Shown piece after piece: positions 2,285 through 13,333 of a stretch of 13,333 bases of DNA; position 1 is the first letter of the stretch, and the number at the start of each line of letters is the position of its first letter. This DNA comes from Methylobacteriaceae bacterium (GTDB lineage Bacteria; Pseudomonadota; Alphaproteobacteria; Rhizobiales; Beijerinckiaceae). The stretch covers positions 1 through 13,333 of the forward strand of contig JAFAPJ010000070.1 in the NCBI GenBank assembly GCA_019247255.1, written 5' to 3'. Below the pieces are notes generated by a model. That model did no database searches and was not told the DNA's origin. It saw nothing but the letters and a program-made list of their open reading frames with translations. The position numbers were made by a program, and so were the translations under genes.

Positions 2285-5200
2285 ATGGCGCCGCTCAGGC
2301 CGTTGCTTCTCGCGACCGCTCTCGTCCTGGCGGGCGGGCCGGCGGGCGCGCAGAGCTTCGATTGCAGCAAGGCGAAGGGCGCCGTCGAGGCTGCGATCTG
2401 CGCCAATCCGGCGTTGGCCGAGCAGGATCGGGCCCTCCTCGACGCTTATCGTGCGGCGCTCGCCCGCGACCCGGCCCGGGCCGAGACGATCCGGGCGGAG
2501 CAGCGAAGCTGGGCGGCGAACCGCGAGGCGGTCTGCGCCTCCAAGGGCGAGCCGCCGCCGCGGATCGCGGCCTGCCTCGCCGGACTGTACCGGACGCGGC
2601 TCGGCACGCTCGCGGCGTCGGCCGTTCCGCCCGCTCCGGCGGGCACACCCGCTCCGCCCGCGCGACCGGCTGCCGCCGGCGGCGTCCCGGGCCTCGCGGC
2701 CGGCATCCCGGGTCCGGGGAGGCCGGCCGTGGCGCCGTCCCCTGCGACCCCGCCGCGTCCGGTCCTGGTCGGGACGCCGGTGCCGCCGCTTCCCGTCCCG
2801 CCGTTGCCAGCCCTGCCGCCGCGCGACCCGGACCCGGCCGCCCGGCTCGACCGTGACGCCGTCGCGGCGGCGGGTCGGAGCGACGCTCTCCTCACGGTGA
2901 CGAGCCCGGGCCGCTTCGCGATCCGGGCCGAGAGCCGCACGGGTGTCTCGCTCCAGCTCGTCGACATGATCGCGGGTCCCGGCGACGAAGCGGGCGCGCC
3001 GGGCGTCAAGGACGGGCGCGTCGACGCGCTGCTCGATCGCGGCACCTACAAGCTGCGCGTGACGGGGGCGGCGAAAGCCGAGGGGGAGGCGAAGCTCCGG
3101 GTCGAGCCGTTCCTGGCCGCGGGCGAGGCCTCGACCTCGCTCCTGCGGGGCGGGCAGGCCTCGACGACCCTCGCGGATCGCCAGAGCCGCTCCTTCTGGG
3201 TGGCGGTCGGGGCGTCGGGCCGGGTGGCGGTCGAGGCGGCGGGCCGGAGCCTCGGCGACCTGCGGCTGTGGCGCAACGGACGCGACCTCGCCGACCTGGC
3301 GACCCGGCTCGACCGGGTGACGCCCGCCACCGGACATCCGCTCACGCGCGCCCGGATCGAAGGCGAGGTGGAGCGCGGTCTCTACCTCGCGACGGCTTAT
3401 GGCGGGCCGAAGCTCACCTGGACGGATGGCGATCCGGGCGAGCCGCTCCATCTCCGGGTCGGCGCGCCCGAGGCGCTGGCCGGCTTGGTCGAGGGCACGG
3501 TCGGTCCGAGCGGCACCGCGCTGTTCGCGGCGCCGAGCGGCGCCGCCTCGGTGCGGCTCGAGCTGCCGGAGCCCGCGGCCGCCACGCTGCGCGCCCGCCG
3601 CGGCGCGGACACGAGGGTCGCGACCCTCACGAAGACGAGCCGCGAGCCGCATCTCGCCCTCGCGCTCCCGGGCGGGACGGGGCCGGCGAGCCTCGAAGTC
3701 ACGGCCGCGCAGGGGCAGCCTTTCCGCCTCCAGGCGCTCGATCCCGGTGCCTCGCGGCGGGTCAGCGGCGCCGGCCCGCATTGGATCGCGGTCGACGTCG
3801 CGGGCGTCGGCGGCGACGAGGTGCCGGCGACCGTGCTCCTCGCTCAGAGCGATGCCCGCGCGGCGCGCGTCATCGCCGGCAACGCACCGAAGATCGGCCC
3901 GGGCCAGGGCTGGCGAACCAAGTTCAACCTGCGCGGCCCGACGACGCTCCTCGTCGAGGTGACGGGAGCCGGGCCGATCGCGGTCGGGCTCAACGGCCCG
4001 CGCTCGAGCGTCTCCTTCGCGCCGCTTCTCGGCTCGCGCACCCCGCGCGCCGACGGGAGGACGCCGCGCTTCGACATGGAGCCCGGCTGGTACACGATGA
4101 AGATCGACCCGGTCGCCGGCGCGTCCGGGATCGCCGACCTGACGCTCGCGCCGCCCGGAATGGGCGTCGAACTCCCGGCCCGGCAACCACCGCGGGCTTC
4201 GGTCACCCTCGGCGTCCAAGTCCTCGACCGCACCGCGAACTACCAGGTTTTCACCAACGCGGCGCCGGGGCTCGCTCTCGCGCCCGTCGCGCGGCCTCTC
4301 CCGCTCGACCTCGAGAAGGGCGCGCTCGCGCTCGACCAAGCGGCCGGCCAGGCGCTCGAGCTGCCGATCCGATGGTCCGCCCGCGGCGGCATCAGCGCGC
4401 TCGCGCCGAACGGCATCCCGATCGAGGCAACGCTCGCGTATGAGGCCGCGAGCCCCGCGGGCCGGACCGCGACGCTCATCCTCCCCGCGCCCGACAAGGC
4501 GCGCGCCGTCATCCTCGCCTGGTCGGATCCGCTCGGCGCGGCGAGCGAGGTCACGCCGATTCCCGCACCGACCGAGCTGCCGACGGTCGTGGCCGGGAAC
4601 CCTCGCTTCTTCAATCTCGCCCGGGGCGAGCGGACGAGCTTCACGGTCGACGTGCCCGAGGGCGGACTGTACCGGGTCGAGACGCTCGGCCGGCTGCGCA
4701 CGGCGCTCACGGTCGCAACCTCCTTCCTGCCCGCCCTCGACAAGGCGGAGGCGAACGGGGCGGGCGAGAACGCGCTCGCCCAAACCTACCTGCGCGCCGG
4801 CCGCTACCGCGTCGTGGTCGGAGCCAGCGAATCCGCGGGTCGGGTCGGGCTCACGGCACGTCCGGCCGAGCTGCCGGAGGCCGGGCGCCTCCTGCCCGGC
4901 ACGAGCGGGCGCGCGACGCTCGCCGACGGGCGCGGGATCGTGTTCCCGCTCGAGATTACGGACGCCGGACGCTACCGGATCGAGCTCTTCGCGCTGGGCG
5001 AGCCCTTCCGGGCCCGGATCGAGGACCATGAGGGCTGGCCGCTCACCGCGCCCGGGCCGCTCACCAGCCTCGAGCGCCGCTTCGAGCCCGGCCGCTACCG
5101 CCTCGTCGTCCTGCCCGGCACGGTCGAGGCCCGGGCGGTCGCGCGGCTGACACGGATCGAGCCGGCGCCCGAACTCGCCGGCCACGGGCCGCATCCGCTT

Positions 5201-7948
5201 TCCTTTGACGGCGAGGTCGCCTTTCAATGGCGCGAGCCGGCCTCCTTAGGCGAACCGCGCCACCCGGACGGCTGGACCTTCCGGCTCGCGTCCCCGGCCG
5301 AGGTCACGTTGCGGCTCGGCGAAGGGATGGCGGGCGACCTTCGGCGCGAGGGGGAGGCCGAGCCGGTCGCACGGATCGTCGGCAAGCCAGGCTTCGCGGG
5401 TCGCCTGCCCGCCGGCCGCTACCTCCTCGAAGCCAGGGCGCTCGGACGTAACGATCGTCTCGACTACACGGTCGCGCTCGCCGCGAGCGAGATCCAGCCC
5501 GGCGTGCCGCGCCGGGTGGAGCTGCCCGCCACGATTTCCTTCGCGGTCGCGGAGGATCGCGTCGTCACGCTCACGACCTTTGGCCGGACCGACCTAAAGG
5601 GCGTGCTCAAGGACCAGGACGGGCGCGTGATCGAACGCCTGACGGACCGGGCCGACGACTGGAATATCGGTCTCTCCCGCCGGCTCGCGGCGGGCAGCTA
5701 CCGGCTGGAGCTCTCGGCCGTGCAGCCGAAGGCGAAGCCGAAGCCCGAGGAGGCCGAGTCCGCGTCCAACGACGAGTCGGGCGACGATCCGGAAAGCCCC
5801 GAGGGCGCCGACGAGGCTGCCGCAGAGGGCGCCGGGAGCGATGCGCAGCCCGGCGCCGATGCCGCCGACGCGCCTGCGGCCGCCGAGGCGTCGCCGGAGG
5901 TCGCGGACAGCGAGGCGCCCGCGGACGATCGCGTCGAGGTCCGGCTCGCGCTGCCGGACGCGGCCGAGATGCCGGGACTCCCGGCCGACGGCGTGAGCGT
6001 CGCGGAAGGCGGCGCGGTCCATCTCGCGCCCGTCCCGTCCGCGGAGGCCGGGACGCTCCTTCTCGCCGCCGCGCGGTCGAGCCAGGAGATCGTGCTCGCG
6101 CTGGAACGCCGCGAGCCCGGCGGACGCTGGACCGTCGTCGGAACGTCGCGCGGGCTCGCGCCCCTCGTTGCGGCGACCGCCGACGGCGATGCCTCCCGCC
6201 CGTGGCGCCTCGCGGCTTGGGCGGTCGATGGCGGCCCGGCCCGCATCGCGCTCGCGCTACGAACCGTCCGGCGCGACTCCGTGCCGGCCGATGCTGTGGC
6301 GCTCGCCCCCGTGCCGCTCGGCGAGGTGGCGGAGGACGTGCGGGTCGCGCTCGCGGCCGCGCCGGCTTCGGGCGTCCTGAGCCTCGCCGAGGCGCCGGCC
6401 GGCCTCCTCGAAGGCTCCGCCGCGGGGCGAGCCCTCGCGCCGGCGGAGCCCGTGCTCGTACCGCAATCGGAGGCCGTCTGGCTCGTCGCGCGCGGGCCTG
6501 CGCGCTCGCTCAAGCTGGCGGCAGCGCCGCTCCCGACCGCGCCTGTCGCCCTGACGGTGCCGGCCGGCGGCCGCGCCGTGCTTCCCCACTCCGCGCCGCC
6601 CGACGGCAGGATCCGGGTGTGGCGCGCCGCATCCGCCTTCGGCCAGCCCGGCCTCGAGGCGGGCCGCGGGATGGGCCTTGCGGCGGGGAGCGCCGTCGCG
6701 GTCGCCGGGGATGCCCCGCTTCGCGCCTGGAACGCGGAAGGCGACGTTCCCCTGTCTCTGCGGCTCGTCGCGCGGGATCTCGCGCTCGCCCCCGAGAAGC
6801 CGGCCTCCGACGAGGTCGCGCTCTCGGTCGCCGCCGGCACTGCACAGCCTTTGCGGCTCGCGGCTGGCCGGAAGCGCCTCCGGCTCGACCTCGCGCCCGG
6901 CACTGTGGTGGCGCTCGCCGGGCCGGGCGGCGCGCCCGCGACGGTGTTCGCGGACCGGGAGGCGGTCAGCCGGACGCTGGAAGGCGAATGGACGAGCCTC
7001 GTCCTCGCGAACCTCGGCGCCTCCGCGCAGCCGGTCCGGGCGAGCGTCGCGCCGTCAGCGGCCGACCACCTGGCGCTCGGCCCGGAGACGGTCGTGAAGC
7101 GCTTTTTCGGCGCGGCCGGCTCGCTTTCCTTGCCGGTCGACGCCAGACCCGGCGACCGGCTCGTCGCGGTCGGCGCCGAGGTCAGCTTCCTGGGCCAGGA
7201 CGGGCAGGTGCTCCGGGGCAGGTCGCTGGCGCTCGCGGGGCCGGGCGAGGCGATCCTCGACCATCCGCCCGGGCTCGTCGCGCTCTGGATCGAGCGGGCC
7301 GGCGCGTCTCCCTGGCCCAAGGCCGAGCCGCGCTCGGTCGAGCTGCCATCCGTGACGAAGCTGGACGGCCCCGCGATGACGCTCGCCCTCGCCCCGCCCG
7401 TTCCTGTCTTGCTCCATGCCCGCACCAGCGCACCCGCGATCCTGCGGCTCGATGGGGGCGAGCCCGCGGTCTTTCCGGCCGGTGCCGAGCTGCATCGTCT
7501 GATCCCCGCCGGTCGCAGCGAGCTCAGGCTCGATTCTCCGCATGACGGTCCGCTCGCCGGCGCACTCGAGCTCACCGCGACGCCCGTCACCCCCATGCGG
7601 GACGGTGTCGGCGAGGCGGTCGCGCTCGCGCCCGGCGGGACTGCGCTCTTCGCCTTCGAGCTTTCAAGGCGCGGCCCGGTCGGCATTGGCATCCGGGCCG
7701 AGCCCGATGTGGCGGCCGTCCGGCTGCTCGATGCCGGCGGCCGGGAGCTCGGCCGCGGGATCGCGCAGCTGCATACGCTCGACCCTGGCCGCTATCTCCT
7801 GGAGGCCAGCCTCCCGGCGGACGGCCGCACCGCGACCCTCCGGCCGGCCGTGATCGGCATCGCGCCCCCGCCGAGCGGCCCGCCGCCCGACGTCGTCGCC
7901 CGATATCTCGAGCTCGTCGGGCTCGCCCCGACCGCGCCCTCCCGCTGA
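2285..7948 (+). CDS. Giant exported protein with N-terminal LprI-like domain
   Basis: A 1887-residue secreted, probably periplasmic protein. The ATG at 2285 is chosen because it opens directly into a signal peptide (residues 1-22, cleavage likely after AGA, before QS); the in-frame TTG at 2147 would bury that signal behind 46 arginine-rich residues. Residues 24-110 form an LprI-like domain (PF07007/DUF1311): FDCSKA, AICANP, a DRALLDAY segment, then W76, C84 and CLAGLYRTRL, with four cysteines (27, 39, 84, 97). A proline-rich linker covers about 114-184. The remaining body has no cysteine and looks all-beta: a G-x-Y-x-hydrophobic motif recurs at tyrosines 255, 367, 603, 796, 841, 897, 938, 1046, 1139 and 1837, and an acidic spacer lies at about 1147-1217. 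I recognise no named family for the body; it may resemble pre-peptidase C-terminal-like beta-sandwiches. The macroglobulin gene follows after 11 bases, so a joint envelope role is likely. Lysozyme inhibition is known for mycobacterial LprI, not shown here. Confidence 0.88.
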   Translation: MAPLRPLLLATALVLAGGPAGAQSFDCSKAKGAVEAAICANPALAEQDRALLDAYRAALARDPARAETIRAEQRSWAANREAVCASKGEPPPRIAACLAGLYRTRLGTLAASAVPPAPAGTPAPPARPAAAGGVPGLAAGIPGPGRPAVAPSPATPPRPVLVGTPVPPLPVPPLPALPPRDPDPAARLDRDAVAAAGRSDALLTVTSPGRFAIRAESRTGVSLQLVDMIAGPGDEAGAPGVKDGRVDALLDRGTYKLRVTGAAKAEGEAKLRVEPFLAAGEASTSLLRGGQASTTLADRQSRSFWVAVGASGRVAVEAAGRSLGDLRLWRNGRDLADLATRLDRVTPATGHPLTRARIEGEVERGLYLATAYGGPKLTWTDGDPGEPLHLRVGAPEALAGLVEGTVGPSGTALFAAPSGAASVRLELPEPAAATLRARRGADTRVATLTKTSREPHLALALPGGTGPASLEVTAAQGQPFRLQALDPGASRRVSGAGPHWIAVDVAGVGGDEVPATVLLAQSDARAARVIAGNAPKIGPGQGWRTKFNLRGPTTLLVEVTGAGPIAVGLNGPRSSVSFAPLLGSRTPRADGRTPRFDMEPGWYTMKIDPVAGASGIADLTLAPPGMGVELPARQPPRASVTLGVQVLDRTANYQVFTNAAPGLALAPVARPLPLDLEKGALALDQAAGQALELPIRWSARGGISALAPNGIPIEATLAYEAASPAGRTATLILPAPDKARAVILAWSDPLGAASEVTPIPAPTELPTVVAGNPRFFNLARGERTSFTVDVPEGGLYRVETLGRLRTALTVATSFLPALDKAEANGAGENALAQTYLRAGRYRVVVGASESAGRVGLTARPAELPEAGRLLPGTSGRATLADGRGIVFPLEITDAGRYRIELFALGEPFRARIEDHEGWPLTAPGPLTSLERRFEPGRYRLVVLPGTVEARAVARLTRIEPAPELAGHGPHPLSFDGEVAFQWREPASLGEPRHPDGWTFRLASPAEVTLRLGEGMAGDLRREGEAEPVARIVGKPGFAGRLPAGRYLLEARALGRNDRLDYTVALAASEIQPGVPRRVELPATISFAVAEDRVVTLTTFGRTDLKGVLKDQDGRVIERLTDRADDWNIGLSRRLAAGSYRLELSAVQPKAKPKPEEAESASNDESGDDPESPEGADEAAAEGAGSDAQPGADAADAPAAAEASPEVADSEAPADDRVEVRLALPDAAEMPGLPADGVSVAEGGAVHLAPVPSAEAGTLLLAAARSSQEIVLALERREPGGRWTVVGTSRGLAPLVAATADGDASRPWRLAAWAVDGGPARIALALRTVRRDSVPADAVALAPVPLGEVAEDVRVALAAAPASGVLSLAEAPAGLLEGSAAGRALAPAEPVLVPQSEAVWLVARGPARSLKLAAAPLPTAPVALTVPAGGRAVLPHSAPPDGRIRVWRAASAFGQPGLEAGRGMGLAAGSAVAVAGDAPLRAWNAEGDVPLSLRLVARDLALAPEKPASDEVALSVAAGTAQPLRLAAGRKRLRLDLAPGTVVALAGPGGAPATVFADREAVSRTLEGEWTSLVLANLGASAQPVRASVAPSAADHLALGPETVVKRFFGAAGSLSLPVDARPGDRLVAVGAEVSFLGQDGQVLRGRSLALAGPGEAILDHPPGLVALWIERAGASPWPKAEPRSVELPSVTKLDGPAMTLALAPPVPVLLHARTSAPAILRLDGGEPAVFPAGAELHRLIPAGRSELRLDSPHDGPLAGALELTATPVTPMRDGVGEAVALAPGGTALFAFELSRRGPVGIGIRAEPDVAAVRLLDAGGRELGRGIAQLHTLDPGRYLLEASLPADGRTATLRPAVIGIAPPPSGPPPDVVARYLELVGLAPTAPSR
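2354..2614 (+). other. LprI-like (DUF1311) domain
   Basis: Residues 24-110 of the giant protein. The order C-x(11)-C ... W-x(7)-C-x(12)-C followed by L-x-x-x-Y-x-x-R-L matches the family layout, in which the four cysteines are expected to form two disulfides in the periplasm. In the family this domain usually makes up a small protein of about 100-150 residues on its own; here it caps a protein over ten times longer. The family's one well-studied member, LprI of Mycobacterium tuberculosis, inhibits lysozyme. Confidence 0.78.
2624..2836 (+). other. Proline-rich linker in the giant protein
   Basis: Residues about 114-184 are built almost only of Pro, Ala, Gly, Val and Leu, with runs such as VPPLPVPPLPALPP, ending in RDPDP. 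It separates the disulfide-rich LprI-like domain from the beta-rich body and would act as an extended, flexible arm. Its composition makes chance sequence similarity to other linkers likely. Confidence 0.7.
3041..5701 (+). repeat. Degenerate G-x-Y-x-hydrophobic protein repeats
   Basis: Nine of ten copies of the motif lie here. Examples are DRGTYKLRV, EPGWYTMKI, RAGRYRVVV, DAGRYRIEL, EPGRYRLVV, PAGRYLLEA and AAGSYRLEL; a tenth (DPGRYLLEA) is at 7781-7807. The motif resembles the penultimate turn and strand of small beta-sandwich domains. Spacing is uneven (41 to 236 residues), so some units are probably too diverged to see. These are protein-level repeats; the DNA copies are not close. Confidence 0.6.
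5723..5937 (+). other. Acidic low-complexity spacer in the giant protein
   Basis: Residues about 1147-1217 begin with a lysine/proline stretch (KAKPKPEE) and continue with Glu, Asp, Ala, Ser and Gly, with no predicted fold. It divides the motif-rich first part from a C-terminal part of about 670 residues that has only one clear G-x-Y motif. Confidence 0.7.
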
Positions 7949-7959
7949 GGACCTCGCCG

Positions 7960-10900
7960 ATGCGATCCGCCGCAGCCCTCCTGATCGCCGCTTCTCTCGC
8001 TCTCGCCGCCGGCGCGGGTCCGCTCGCGGCTCAGAACCTCGCGTCCGAACCCGGCCGCCCCGCCCCGACAGGGACCGCCGCGGCACCTTTCGCGCTCGAC
8101 CGGCTGCAGCGGGCGGACGGCGCGAGCGTCGTCCCGGACCGCTTCCTGCGCCGTTGGGACCCGATCACCATCTTCTTCGACCGGGATGCCGGCCCGGCGG
8201 CCGGCGGTCCCGAGGACGAGCCGGGCCGCGTCGTCCAGCTCTCGCCGCCGGCGGCCGGCGCGTGGCAATGGCTCAACGCGCGTACCCTCCAGTTTCGTCC
8301 GGCGGAGCCCTGGCGGCCGCTCGCGCGGGTCGCGGTGACGGCGGGCGGCCGGACGACCCGGCTCGTGCCGCTCCTCCCGGCTCCGACCGCGACCAGCCCC
8401 GACGGCCGACGCGACGGCATTGCGGAGCTCGACCAGATCGGGCTCACCTTCTCCGAGCCGGTCGAGGCGGAGGCGCTCGCGCGTCTCCTGTCGATCGAGC
8501 TCCGGCCGCTGCCGGGACTCGACGGCCGCGGCGGCCAGACCCTGTCCGGCTCCGATTTCGAGGTGAAGGCGCTCGAGCGCGCCAAGCGTGCCGATCCGCA
8601 GACCTATCTCGTGCGCCTGCGCCAACCCGTGCCGGACGGCCGGCTCGCCATCCTGCGGCTCAAGCTCTCGGACGAGCCCGGGCTCGACGATCCGAGCTTC
8701 GAGCTGCAGCTCCGCTCGGCCGTGCCCTTCACGGTGACCGAGCTCGGCTGCGGGCGCGGACTCGACAAGCAGGTCGAGGATGGGATCGTCCGCTGCAATC
8801 CGAACGGGTCCGTGTCGGAGGAAGAGGACGAAGGCTCGCGTCCCGCGCCGAAGCGGAGCCTCACGCTGGGCTTCACGGCGGAGCCGGCCGTGCCCGACGC
8901 ACTCGGGCTCCGGCAGGCGCTCCGGATCACGCCGCCGGTCGACGACCTCACGGCCGAACGGAGCGGCACGAGCCTGCGGGTCGGCGGCCGGTTCAAGGCC
9001 GAGACGGTCTACGACATCCGAGTCGAGCCGGACACCGTGAGGGACGGGCGCGGCCGCGCGCTGTCCGGCGCGCCGTTCGCGGCCCGCTTCGCCTTCCTGC
9101 CGGATCGGCCGCGGCTGCGATGGGATGCTGCCCAGGGCATCGCCGAGCGCTTCGGCCCGCAGATGATCCCGCTGCGCGGCCGCAGCTACGACCGGGCCGA
9201 CATCCGCATCCACGCGGTCGACCCGCTCGCCCGTCACTTCTGGCCGTTCCCGGCGGACGGGCTCGAGACGGAGGACGATGCGAAGCCGCCGCTCGCCGGC
9301 AACGAGGCGGGAGCCTGGACCGACAAAGCCGACATCCAGGCGGCGGCCATGGCGGAGCGCATCCGCTCGCTCGGCTCGCCCGCGATTTCGGAGATCGTGC
9401 GGCTCCCGACGCAGCGCGGCGGCGTCGAGGCGAAGTTCGGCCTGGACGTGAAGGGGCTCCTCGCCAAGATCGCGGGGCCCGACCAGCCCGGCACGTACCT
9501 CGTCGGCCTCCGGCCAGTGGACGGCGCGAAGCGGCGCTGGCTGCGCGTCCAGGTGACCGACCTCGTCCTGACCGCGATCGAGGAGGCGGAGCGCGTGCGC
9601 TTCGCCGTCACCTCGCTCGCCAACGCGCGTCCGGTCGACGGCGCCGAGATCCGGCTCGAAGGGCTCCAGAACGACCGCTTCGTCACGATCGCGCGCGGTC
9701 GCACCGACGCTGACGGCGGCTTCACCTGGAATCTTCAGGCCAGGCCCAAGGGCGAGATCCGCCGCATCGTGGTCCAGAAGGGGCTCGACACGCTTGTGCT
9801 CGAGCCCGGGCGCGGCCCGGCCGAATACCGCGACGAGAACTGGACGAAGCCGGAGGAGACTTGGCTCGCCTGGACGGTGCGGCCGGACGAGAAGCGCGCC
9901 GAGGAGGCCCGGACCCTCTGCCACGTCTTCACCGAGCGCCCGATCTACCGGCCGGAGGAGCCCGTACACGTGAAGGGCATGGTGCGCCGCTACCTCGGCG
10001 GGGCGCTCAGCTTCGCGTCGAAGGGTGGGACCGTGATCGTCACCGGGCCGGGCGACGCGGAATGGCGCTACCCGGTCTCGCTCGATCCGGTCGGCGGCTT
10101 CTACCAAAAGTTCGACGTCGCGACGGAGGCGACCGGCGATTACCAGGTCAAGTTCCAGCCGGACGGCGAGGAGGAGACCTGCGGCGATTTCCCGTTCAAG
10201 AAGGAGGCCTACCGGCTTCCGACCTTCGAGGTCCTGCTCAACGGGCCCCGGGAAGTGCCGCTCGACGGCGAGTTCTCCGTCGACCTCCTGGCGAAGTACT
10301 TCGCCGGCGGCCTCGTGGCGGACCGCCCGATCAAGTGGCGGGTCAGCCAGTTCCCGCAGGCCTGGACGCCGCCCGGCCGCGACGGCTTCCTGTTCTCGTC
10401 CGACAGCCGCTTCTCGGGCGACGCCAAGTTCCGCTCGACGCCGGTCCTCGAGCGCGAGGCCCGGACGGATGCGGGCGGGGCCGCGCGCCTCACTCTCGAC
10501 CCGACGATCGAGCCGACCGCGCAGCCCCGCCGCTACGCCGTCGAGGCGACCGTCACGGGCGACGACGATATCCAGATCCGCTCCATCCAGAACGTGGTCG
10601 CCCTGCCGCCTTTCACGCTCGGCGTGAAGGTCCCGCGCTACCTGCCCCAGGCCGGCGCGATCGAGCCCGAGATCCTCGCCGTGAAGGCCGACGGCTCGCC
10701 GCTCGCCGGGCTCGAGATGACGGTCCGGCTGGTGCGCCGAAACTGGTCCTCGGTCCTGCAGGCCTCCGACTTCGCCCAGGGTTCGGCGAAATACGTGACG
10801 CAGGTGGTCGACGAGACGCTCGTCGAGCGCAAGGTCACGTCGACGGCCGAGGTGCAAAAGCTCGCCTTCGAGGCGCGCGAGGCGGGGGTCTACCTGATCC

Positions 10901-13333
10901 AGGTCGAGGCCTCCGACCGGATCGGCCGGCGCCAGATCGTCTCGGTTGATTTCTTTATGGGCGGATCGACGCCCGTGACCTGGTCGCGGCCGCCCGCCGA
11001 GACCGTGACGGTCACGACCGAGAAGGATGAATACGCGCCGGGCGAAACCGCGACGCTCGTCCTCCAGAGCCCCTTCCAGAGCGCGCGGGCGCTGGCGGTC
11101 GTCGAGGAGCCCGAGGGTCGCTTCCGTTATGATTGGGTCGACATCCAGAACGGCTTCGGCCGCTACGAGCTCGCGCTCCGCAAGGAGCAGATGCCGCGCC
11201 TCGCGGTGCATTTCCTCGTCATGCGCGGCCGGCTGCCGGGCGAGATCAATCCGACCGCACCCTTCGACCAGGCGAAGCCCGTCACGGTCGCTGCGACCAA
11301 GTGGGTCAAGGTCTCGCCCGTCCGCAACATCGTGGTCGCGGCGCTCGAGGCGCCGGCGCGCGCCCGTCCGGCGCAGGAGATCGAGGTCGCGATCCGGCTC
11401 TCGGACGAGACCGGCCGGCCGCTCGCCGGCGAGGCGACCTTCTGGATGGTCGATCAGGCCGTGCTGTCGCTGGCGCGCGAGCGCCCGCTCGATCCGCTGC
11501 CCGCCTTCGTGGTGAACCGCCCCACCCGTTTGGCCGCCCGCGACACGCGCAACATGGCGTTCGGGGTCATCCCGCTCGAGGAGAACCCCGGCGGCGACGA
11601 GGCGGCGGACGATTGGGGGATCGAGAACATCTCGGTCCGCAAGAACTTCACGCCCGTGCCGGTCTACCTGCCGCGGGTGCCGATCGGCCCCGACGGCGTG
11701 GCGCGGGTCAAGGTCAAGCTCCCGGACACGCTGACCGTGTTCAAGCTGCGCGCCAAGGCGATCGCGGGGCCGGACCGCTTCGGCTTCGCGACGGGCGAAC
11801 TCCTGGTCCGGCAGGAGCTCGTGGCCCAGCCCGCCCTGCCGCGCTTCGTCCGGCCGGGCGATCGCTTCGAGGCGGGCCTCATCGGGCGCGTGGTCGAGGG
11901 GCCGGGCGGCACCGGGCGCGTGGCCTTGACGGTCGACGGGGCGGCGCTCGAGGGCCCGCGCGAGCGGACCCTCGCCTGGGAGCAGAACCGGCCGGCCCGC
12001 GCCGACTTCCCGCTAACGGTCGGCGAGCCGAAGCCCGGCGCCGAGCGGACCCGCCTGCGCTTCGTGCTCCAGCGCGACGCCGACAAGGCGGGCGACGCGG
12101 TCGAGATCGAGCTGCCCGTCCGGCCGGACCGGCCTCCCGTGCGCCGGCGCGAGATCGCCGAGATCGCGCCCGGCGCCTCCGCCACCCTCCCCACGCCGAA
12201 CGACCCCGTCCGCCCGGGCTCCTTCTCGCGCCGCGTGACGCTCGCGAGCGATCCGGCGGTCGTGCGCCTCGTCGCCGGGCTCACCTACCTGGTCGAGTAC
12301 CCCTACGGCTGCACGGAGCAGCGCATCGCCTTGGCCTCGGCCGGGCTCGCCATGAAGCCCTTCGCGCCGATCCTGGCGGCGGGCGGGCTTGAGAGCCGCG
12401 TCGGAGAGAGCGTCCGATCGACCGCGAAGGTCATCGGAAGCGCGGTCGACGACGACGGGCTCGTCGCCTTCTGGCCGCGCTCGCGCGGGACCGTCACGCT
12501 GACGGCCTGGGCCTATCGCTTTCTCGTCGCAGCGGACCGCGCCGGCGAGAGCGTGGACAAGACGCTGATCGACCGGCTCGGCAAGGTGCTGAAGCTCGCG
12601 CTCCGCTCCGATTACCCGCGGCTGCTCCGCGAGAACGAGCTGCGCGAGCGCGTCGAGGCGCTGACGGCGCTCGCGGAGGGCGGGCGGATCGACGAAGCGT
12701 ATGCGGCCGAGCTCGCGCGGCGCGCCAAGGCCATGCCGACCGCGACGCTCGCGGCCGCGACGGCCGCGCTCGCGAGGCAGTCGGGCGACGATCGCCGCAT
12801 TCCGGACGAGCTCGTCGACACGCTCTGGGGGCGCATCCGCATTCTCAACCGCGAGGGCCGGTACGCTTATGCCGGCATCTCGGGCGAGGCCGCGAGCCCC
12901 GAGATCCTGCCCTCCGAGATCCGCGCCCTGGCGGAATCGGTCCGGGCCGGCGCGCTGGCGGCGCCCGAGGACGGGCGCAACGCCGTCCTTCGGGAGGCGC
13001 TCATCCGCACGGGCGAGGGGAGCGGCTGGGGCACGACGACCGCGAACGCGGCCGCGATCCGGGCGCTCGCCGAGACCTGGCGGGCCGCCGGCGGCAGCGT
13101 CGCGGTCAACCTCGCGCGGGGCGGCGCGCCCGAGAAGCTGCAGCTCACCCCTCAGGCGCCGGTGATCCAGCGGGTCGCGAGCGAGCCCGCGCCGGAGCGC
13201 GTCGAGAATGCCGGGCAGCGCCCTATCGTTGCGCTCGTCGACCTGCGCTATCAGCCGGTCGAGCCTGGCTTCCTGGCGAAGCCCGTCGCCGACGGCTTCG
13301 TCCTCGCCCGGACGGCCTATCGGGTTCCCGGCG
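7960..13333 (+). CDS. Alpha-2-macroglobulin family protein (3' end outside window)
   Basis: A periplasmic protease-trapping protein of the bacterial alpha-2-macroglobulin family (E. coli YfhM/ECAM relatives). The frame is open for 1791 codons to the window edge. The start ATG has GAGG (7947-7950) overlapping the upstream stop, 9 bases away, suggesting translational coupling. Residues 1-24 are a type I signal peptide (cleavage likely LAA|QN) without a lipobox cysteine, so unlike E. coli ECAM it is probably soluble. Landmarks: TERPIYRPEE at 658 (MG3), YRLPTFEV at 751, VDQAVLSLA at 1164, RKNF at 1227, PDTLTVFKLRAKA at 1255, the thioester site C-T-E-Q at 1451-1454, and a complete helical thioester domain ending near WGTTTANAAAIRALAETW (1689). 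Cysteines 264/279 and 654/741 could pair, leaving Cys1451 free. An acidic loop (SEEEDEG) lies near 284. Perhaps 100-200 residues are missing. The pbpC gene (PBP1C) often neighbours this family and may follow. Confidence 0.94.
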   Translation, partial: MRSAAALLIAASLALAAGAGPLAAQNLASEPGRPAPTGTAAAPFALDRLQRADGASVVPDRFLRRWDPITIFFDRDAGPAAGGPEDEPGRVVQLSPPAAGAWQWLNARTLQFRPAEPWRPLARVAVTAGGRTTRLVPLLPAPTATSPDGRRDGIAELDQIGLTFSEPVEAEALARLLSIELRPLPGLDGRGGQTLSGSDFEVKALERAKRADPQTYLVRLRQPVPDGRLAILRLKLSDEPGLDDPSFELQLRSAVPFTVTELGCGRGLDKQVEDGIVRCNPNGSVSEEEDEGSRPAPKRSLTLGFTAEPAVPDALGLRQALRITPPVDDLTAERSGTSLRVGGRFKAETVYDIRVEPDTVRDGRGRALSGAPFAARFAFLPDRPRLRWDAAQGIAERFGPQMIPLRGRSYDRADIRIHAVDPLARHFWPFPADGLETEDDAKPPLAGNEAGAWTDKADIQAAAMAERIRSLGSPAISEIVRLPTQRGGVEAKFGLDVKGLLAKIAGPDQPGTYLVGLRPVDGAKRRWLRVQVTDLVLTAIEEAERVRFAVTSLANARPVDGAEIRLEGLQNDRFVTIARGRTDADGGFTWNLQARPKGEIRRIVVQKGLDTLVLEPGRGPAEYRDENWTKPEETWLAWTVRPDEKRAEEARTLCHVFTERPIYRPEEPVHVKGMVRRYLGGALSFASKGGTVIVTGPGDAEWRYPVSLDPVGGFYQKFDVATEATGDYQVKFQPDGEEETCGDFPFKKEAYRLPTFEVLLNGPREVPLDGEFSVDLLAKYFAGGLVADRPIKWRVSQFPQAWTPPGRDGFLFSSDSRFSGDAKFRSTPVLEREARTDAGGAARLTLDPTIEPTAQPRRYAVEATVTGDDDIQIRSIQNVVALPPFTLGVKVPRYLPQAGAIEPEILAVKADGSPLAGLEMTVRLVRRNWSSVLQASDFAQGSAKYVTQVVDETLVERKVTSTAEVQKLAFEAREAGVYLIQVEASDRIGRRQIVSVDFFMGGSTPVTWSRPPAETVTVTTEKDEYAPGETATLVLQSPFQSARALAVVEEPEGRFRYDWVDIQNGFGRYELALRKEQMPRLAVHFLVMRGRLPGEINPTAPFDQAKPVTVAATKWVKVSPVRNIVVAALEAPARARPAQEIEVAIRLSDETGRPLAGEATFWMVDQAVLSLARERPLDPLPAFVVNRPTRLAARDTRNMAFGVIPLEENPGGDEAADDWGIENISVRKNFTPVPVYLPRVPIGPDGVARVKVKLPDTLTVFKLRAKAIAGPDRFGFATGELLVRQELVAQPALPRFVRPGDRFEAGLIGRVVEGPGGTGRVALTVDGAALEGPRERTLAWEQNRPARADFPLTVGEPKPGAERTRLRFVLQRDADKAGDAVEIELPVRPDRPPVRRREIAEIAPGASATLPTPNDPVRPGSFSRRVTLASDPAVVRLVAGLTYLVEYPYGCTEQRIALASAGLAMKPFAPILAAGGLESRVGESVRSTAKVIGSAVDDDGLVAFWPRSRGTVTLTAWAYRFLVAADRAGESVDKTLIDRLGKVLKLALRSDYPRLLRENELRERVEALTALAEGGRIDEAYAAELARRAKAMPTATLAAATAALARQSGDDRRIPDELVDTLWGRIRILNREGRYAYAGISGEAASPEILPSEIRALAESVRAGALAAPEDGRNAVLREALIRTGEGSGWGTTTANAAAIRALAETWRAAGGSVAVNLARGGAPEKLQLTPQAPVIQRVASEPAPERVENAGQRPIVALVDLRYQPVEPGFLAKPVADGFVLARTAYRVPG
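11476..11637 (+). other. Candidate bait region of the macroglobulin
   Basis: Residues about 1173-1226 lie between the VDQAVLSLA strand and the RKNF strand, the place where the protease-cleavable bait segment sits in animal alpha-2-macroglobulins. The stretch is loop-like: several arginines (RPTRLAARDTRN), then MAFG, then an acidic, glycine-rich part (EENPGGDEAADDWG). Arginine and Met/Phe sites would suit trypsin-like and chymotrypsin-like proteases. Placement rests on flanking motifs only. Confidence 0.5.
12310..12321 (+). other. Thioester site C-T-E-Q
   Basis: Codons for Cys1451-Thr-Glu-Gln1454 within YPYGCTEQR. In this family the Cys and Gln side chains form an internal thioester that covalently captures the protease after the bait is cut. 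Both key residues are present, so this is the thioester-bearing type and not the bacterial type that lost it. Confidence 0.93.

Follow-up and report, generated by a model that had tools for sequence, protein, structure and literature searches.

A giant exported protein, an alpha-2-macroglobulin and a PBP1C-type protein are encoded in a conserved bacterial gene cassette

Introduction

What does a very large exported protein do next to an alpha-2-macroglobulin (A2M), and what is the pair for? The question is raised by a stretch of 13,333 nucleotides from a Methylobacteriaceae bacterium (contig JAFAPJ010000070.1 of assembly GCA_019247255.1), called the window here in its whole length, in which the gene of a giant exported protein is followed by an A2M gene. 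A preliminary description of this DNA had proposed that a lysozyme-facing and a protease-facing protein act jointly in defence against predatory bacteria, phage lysis enzymes or host secretions. Here we report that the two genes belong to a conserved cassette with pbpC as third member, and we tentatively read this cassette, at somewhat less than even chances, as a periplasmic protease-trap and wall-repair module like YfhM-PbpC in which the giant would be the scaffold.

Statements attributed below to articles by PMC number refer to the parts of those articles that were at hand. Bacterial macroglobulins are described as type I, with a thioester and often encoded with pbpC, and type II, without a thioester and encoded in a six-gene operon (PMC5764988). 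For YfhM-PbpC it was proposed that the A2M stops proteases and PBP1C mends the wall (PMC4498604; PMC5764988). The type II protein MagD has neither a lipobox nor a thioester and yet traps protease; MagA, MagB and MagF bind to it and companions stabilise it (PMC5764988).

Results

The giant is encoded on the + strand from the ATG at 2285 to the TGA at 7946-7948 (2285-7948, 1,887 amino acids). After a spacer of 11 bases (7949-7959) the co-oriented A2M gene starts with the ATG at 7960 and runs to 13333 (1,791 amino acids), and because the window is the whole of contig C357, its open reading frame (ORF) is cut at the end. A Shine-Dalgarno-like GAGG at 7947-7950 (+), which may serve the A2M gene as ribosome site, overlaps the stop codon of the giant. 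The layout described before, two very large exported proteins 11 bases apart with a ribosome site over the first stop, was confirmed from the coordinates.

The best 80 of 109 contig matches to the giant yielded 79 loci: 62 from Alphaproteobacteria, six from Gammaproteobacteria, one from an unclassed member of the Pseudomonadota, three from Acidobacteriota, single ones from Eiseniibacteriota, Nitrospirota, Myxococcota and Elusimicrobiota, and one labelled Actinomycetota. In 69 of the 79 loci the next gene after the giant, in the same orientation, encodes A2M, and nine of the ten loci without it are contig ends with at most 564 bases left; the pairing is far beyond chance. With A2M starts chosen by script, the gap amounted to a median of 5 bases in the 69 loci, 17 of which overlap by four bases. 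A pbpC gene follows the A2M gene in 60 of the 69 loci, and five of the other nine end at most 42 bases past A2M. In the six loci in which the third gene was tested, PBP_1c (TIGR02073) was the best model with 421-478 bits, all under the cut-off of 494.2. The neighbourhood search that the preliminary description had recommended thus found the pair not in a single strain but in loci, mostly alphaproteobacterial, that span six named phyla, and pbpC, which had been named there only as an item to check, proved to be the third member of the cassette. One locus is labelled Mycobacterium sp. KBS0706, yet its A2M hardly differs from the Inquilinus limosus one; this genome is probably mislabelled.

The remainder of the cassette was found in the window's own genome, an assembly of 3.36 Mb in 685 contigs with a completeness of 82.65%. 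An A2M profile search revealed an A2M C-terminus of 139 amino acids with a bMG10 domain on contig C90 (3,140 bases), followed by a DUF559 ORF and then by a pbpC-type frame of 838 amino acids with transglycosylase and transpeptidase domains, which is cut at the contig's other end. The printed ends of C357 and C90 have nine bases in common, an overlap which is suggestive of contiguity but too short as proof.

Because loci found by the giant cannot show how frequent A2Ms without a giant are, genome samples were searched with both proteins. The three samples (60 genomes of the family, 289 of the class and 398 of the phylum) have genomes in common, the window's own being part of each, and together they contain ten distinct giant-bearing genomes; with 2 to 14 candidates scored per genome, misses are possible. 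In the family sample the giant was found in five and A2M in 19 of 60 genomes, and a close A2M (58-100% identity) occurred in exactly the five giant-bearing genomes, those of the remaining 14 genomes being distant (up to 30% identity). In the class sample, 4 of 289 genomes had the giant and 41 an A2M; the A2Ms of the giant-bearing four showed 46-100% identity and those of the remaining 37 at most 29%. A further giant match in this sample (genome G201; E value 7.4e-4, 98 residues, three stops, no A2M match) was discounted as chance. In the phylum sample, searched with profiles, the giant was found in 4 and A2M in 125 of 398 genomes, with A2M scores of 2308-2876 bits in the four giant-bearing genomes and of at most 134.5 bits in the other 121. 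In two genomes, G104 and G384, giant and A2M lie on separate contigs. CxEQ was present in each of the 14 A2M loci of the family that have no giant, as was a downstream pbpC match (partial in L100).

The A2Ms and PbpCs of the cassette each share a lineage of their own. In quick trees of 22 giant-type sequences and of giantless ones from the window's family (14 for A2M, 13 for PbpC), a branch with a Shimodaira-Hasegawa-like approximate likelihood ratio (SH-aLRT) support of 100 placed the giant-type sequences on one side and the giantless ones on the other. The split persisted, again with an SH-aLRT of 100, in trees of 20 giant-type and nine giantless sequences plus the E. coli protein, the E. 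coli A2M being a long branch. Pairwise distances, calculated for 24 representatives of 46 loci, correlated with 0.97 between A2M and giant, 0.92 between A2M and PbpC and 0.91 between giant and PbpC.

The structure models describe the giant as a chain of beta-sandwich domains, several with the PPC fold. A signal-peptide-like start (amino acids 1-23, 2285-2353, judged by eye) is followed by an LprI domain (PF07007; amino acids 27-108, 2363-2608), helical in the model and matched in Pfam with an E value of 1.9e-8 (35 bits, cut-off 22). An LprI-related domain at this place had been recognized before, and the match bears this out, but it covers only ~80 of 1,887 residues. The four cysteine residues of the giant (27, 39, 84 and 97) all lie within it and are conserved in an alignment of 14 sequences. 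Against the solved DUF1311 structure 3gi7 the sequence comparison, in which the domain was not run alone, gave an E value of 0.37, behind unrelated chains. A Pro/Ala-rich linker (amino acids 114-170, 2624-2794), predicted to be disordered with a predicted local distance difference test (pLDDT) below 50 at model residues 91-147, leads to a first predicted array of beta-sandwiches with internal repeats (amino acids 183-1146, 2831-5722; AlphaFold2, mean pLDDT 88.3). This array includes a PPC or collagen-binding-type domain (amino acids 763-860, 4571-4864) and two more PPC/jelly-roll-like domains (amino acids 863-961 and 965-1068, 4871-5488). Behind an acidic linker, also predicted to be disordered (amino acids 1147-1220, 5723-5944; pLDDT below 50 at model residues 1-74 except one), lies a second array (5945-7945; AlphaFold2, mean pLDDT 87.2) with the last PPC-type domain at about amino acids 1766-1861 (7580-7867). 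All these features are on the + strand.

Besides LprI, no Pfam or NCBIfam family was found above cut-off in the giant; the Pfam listing for the window's giant holds no MliC domain, and PF04151 (PPC) gave no match to it at an E value of 1. PF04151 was matched by 5 of 37 giant relatives (best E value 2.4e-6), and the PPC likeness otherwise comes from fold matches. From clostridial collagenase PPC (PF04151) and PliG the giant differs in having many serial beta-sandwiches and no attached protease. Among 7,990 candidates scored, 372 homologues were found at an E value of at most 0.001, of which the best 120 were listed; one of them (P0104) has a precomputed ExbD domain (PF02472) and no LprI. Across 36 relatives taken from the closest 120, the core has a mean column identity of 48% and more than 130 invariant columns, and in wider sets the two halves reach 38% and 32%. 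The giant could be a decoy substrate or sensor, that is, a protease-sensitive periplasmic target which spares other proteins or signals damage, and the predicted disordered linkers between ordered arrays would suit such a role; since its conservation exceeds what a decoy needs, we regard this as very unlikely.

The A2M of the window has, on the + strand, an MG2 domain (9922-10191; Pfam E value 6.8e-11), the bait-region domain A2M_BRD (11008-11472; E value 1.6e-11) and, in addition, the Pfam A2M domain. Its thioester motif GCTEQ is intact (amino acids 1450-1454, 12307-12321), as had been noted before, in a protein that is incomplete at the contig end; the A2M of an Enterovirga relative has 1,938 amino acids. 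The A2M profile matches the YfhM structures 5a42, 4ziq and 4rtd with E values of 7e-34 to 8e-34. The window's A2M has no lipobox, its first cysteine not coming before residue 264, and a lipobox-like word was found in 2 of 62 giant-type A2Ms. Likewise, such a word is missing from the open frame's first 250 residues in 13 of the 14 giantless A2Ms of the family; the word of L088 lies ahead of the likely start, and L100 is cut at its start. Two side observations concern the N-terminal part: the A2M profile, at its positions 53-120, gave a match to the N-terminal portion of the mycobacterial L,D-transpeptidase LdtMt2 (E values 3e-4 to 2e-3), and Pfam places Big_10, a bacterial Ig domain, at amino acids 92-128 (region 7960-8343), a wall-enzyme domain on a macroglobulin.

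LprI and the thioester vary between lineages. Counted in the window and 60 giants from the 79 loci that exceed 1,650 amino acids and do not run off the contig, LprI is present in 22 of 61 giants and absent from 39, and giant and A2M are kept together regardless, mostly with pbpC. In giants without LprI the signal-peptide-like start, by eye, runs almost straight into the core; two Methylocella giants (L027, L028) have a short two-cysteine stretch at this place, perhaps a remnant. The thioester column was readable in 65 of 69 A2Ms, with the cysteine kept in 46 and lost in 19. GSTEQ is found in all 12 Rhizobium-type loci, aspartate in L080, and glycine in six A2Ms which are Acetobacteraceae by name. 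Neither LprI, missing from 39 of 61 giants, nor the thioester, lost in 19 of 65 A2Ms, could therefore be retained as the essence of the cassette; both are optional, lineage-variable trim. LprI was combined with a lost thioester in 15 copies and with an intact one in six, the window among the latter; giants without LprI went with an intact thioester in 34 and a lost one in two, and four copies were not scored. A tree of the window and 61 of the 69 loci, from which A2Ms that were cut, split or contained N were left out, required at least three changes for the thioester and seven for LprI, with three independent pairs. Hence, the table is lopsided, but a causal tie between LprI and thioester loss cannot be judged because the independent events are too few.

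These counts bear on the proposed joint defence, in which LprI would block lysozyme-like enzymes and the thioester A2M proteases from predators, phage lysins or host secretions. The pairing, the LprI domain and the thioester of that proposal stand. Its lysozyme-facing purpose is not supported: LprI is missing from most giants, it accompanies thioester loss more often than an intact thioester (with few independent events), and whole clades do without the thioester. Moreover, the Salmonella protein ScwA, an LprI protein without MliC, left lysozyme sensitivity unchanged according to the available part of the report, which credits inhibition by M. tuberculosis LprI to a separate MliC domain (PMC7933661). 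PliG matched the giant no better than collagenase PPC domains or other jelly rolls did, which indicates fold likeness only. The anti-phage defence models of PADLOC gave no match, and titles and abstract starts of the open-licence literature contained no link of the giant to Bdellovibrio or predation, the one article listed on that subject dealing with a CPR predator. We consider a shield of this kind unlikely. The same data touch on a role in wall synthesis, in which giant and A2M would assist PBP1C, structurally or as regulators, during growth or in shaping the envelope, and trapping would be secondary or lost. This would fit the retention of pbpC without a thioester in 12 of 12 Rhizobium-type loci and the report that ScwA controls wall enzyme levels (PMC7933661), but the thioester cysteine is kept in 46 of 65 A2Ms and, as MagD traps protease without one (PMC5764988), its loss need not end trapping. 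We judge a purely wall-synthetic module to be improbable.

The wider neighbours vary by lineage, shared runs being found chiefly in Methylocystis-like relatives. In the window, the genes ahead of the cassette (1-2125, +) encode an aldo/keto reductase, an HpcH/HpaI aldolase and a MaoC-like hydratase. On plasmids the giant was found in 7 of 72,556 records, all from Rhizobium and two from nodules, and the two Rhizobium plasmid annotations examined give the order hypothetical protein, MG2, transglycosylase. These records would suit a host-contact factor of plant-associated bacteria, but the giant also occurs in methanotrophs, Acetobacteraceae, Acidobacteriota and Elusimicrobia, which makes such a role most improbable. 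The PAN-domain A2Ms of root nodule bacteria are a different fusion (PMC4653623).

Discussion

In the reading we tentatively prefer, giant, A2M and PBP1C would form a periplasmic module. Following the proposal for E. coli YfhM-PbpC, the A2M would trap proteases on their entry into the periplasm and PBP1C would rebuild the damaged wall. The giant, a predicted string of beta-sandwiches with several PPC-type domains, may hold or stabilise both at the peptidoglycan, a part modelled on the companions by which MagD, a lipid-free A2M, is stabilised. Both LprI and thioester would be accessories gained or lost by lineage.

Like type I yfhM-pbpC (E. coli ECAM, Salmonella Sa-A2M; the order was seen in K-12), the cassette encodes an A2M with MG, bait and thioester parts followed by pbpC. 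Unlike it, the cassette adds an upstream giant, its A2M lacks a lipobox whereas E. coli YfhM is an inner-membrane lipoprotein, its A2M and PbpC lineages are separate, and the thioester cysteine is lost in some clades. With type II, magABCDEF and E. coli yfaA-yfaT-yfaS-yfaQ-yfaP, it shares an A2M with dedicated companions, thioester-free in some clades, but it includes pbpC. With M. tuberculosis LprI and Salmonella ScwA the giant has the N-terminal 80 residues and four conserved cysteines in common, but in the cassette LprI is small next to the giant core at whose head it sits, and it is optional.

Several observations weigh against the preferred reading. A giant profile found no sequence match in E. 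coli YfaA, YfaP, YfaQ and YfaT, which we take to correspond to Mag proteins; kinship with these companions was rejected and the Mag parallel is therefore an analogy only. The idea that the giant replaces the missing lipid anchor was dropped, since a lipobox also seems to be lacking in the A2Ms of this family that occur without a giant; the giant is thus not accounted for by the lack of an anchor. PPC domains are generic and indicate no single role, and 2 of 37 giant relatives matched bMG6 instead of PPC. Vertical descent also yields correlated distances. The cassette is rare, in about 1% of the phylum sample, and it is not always complete: no A2M lies in the 5.1 kb behind the LprI-bearing giant of the Competibacteraceae locus L061, pbpC is absent from the 3.5-4.2 kb after A2M at L013, L029, L068 and L078, and on C90 the endonuclease-like DUF559 ORF (L108:2281-2718) stands between the A2M end and pbpC.

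A further-reaching version, which we consider possible but rather doubtful, is a third class of bacterial macroglobulins with the giant as obligate core. Here the PPC array, and not a thioester or lipid anchor, would position the A2M on PBP1C and the peptidoglycan, LprI head and thioester would be interchangeable, and the thioester-free A2Ms of Rhizobium and Acetobacteraceae would work via the giant.

In the open-licence literature, searched by titles and abstract starts, nothing was found on the giant or on a link of macroglobulins with LprI. The finding bears on the naming of the giants, which databases call "lysozyme inhibitor LprI family protein" or "hypothetical protein". The cassette crosses the division into type I and type II: pbpC is retained, an unnamed giant is added, and whole clades have serine or glycine in place of the thioester cysteine. 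It also offers a way to test what keeps a macroglobulin without a lipid anchor at the wall.
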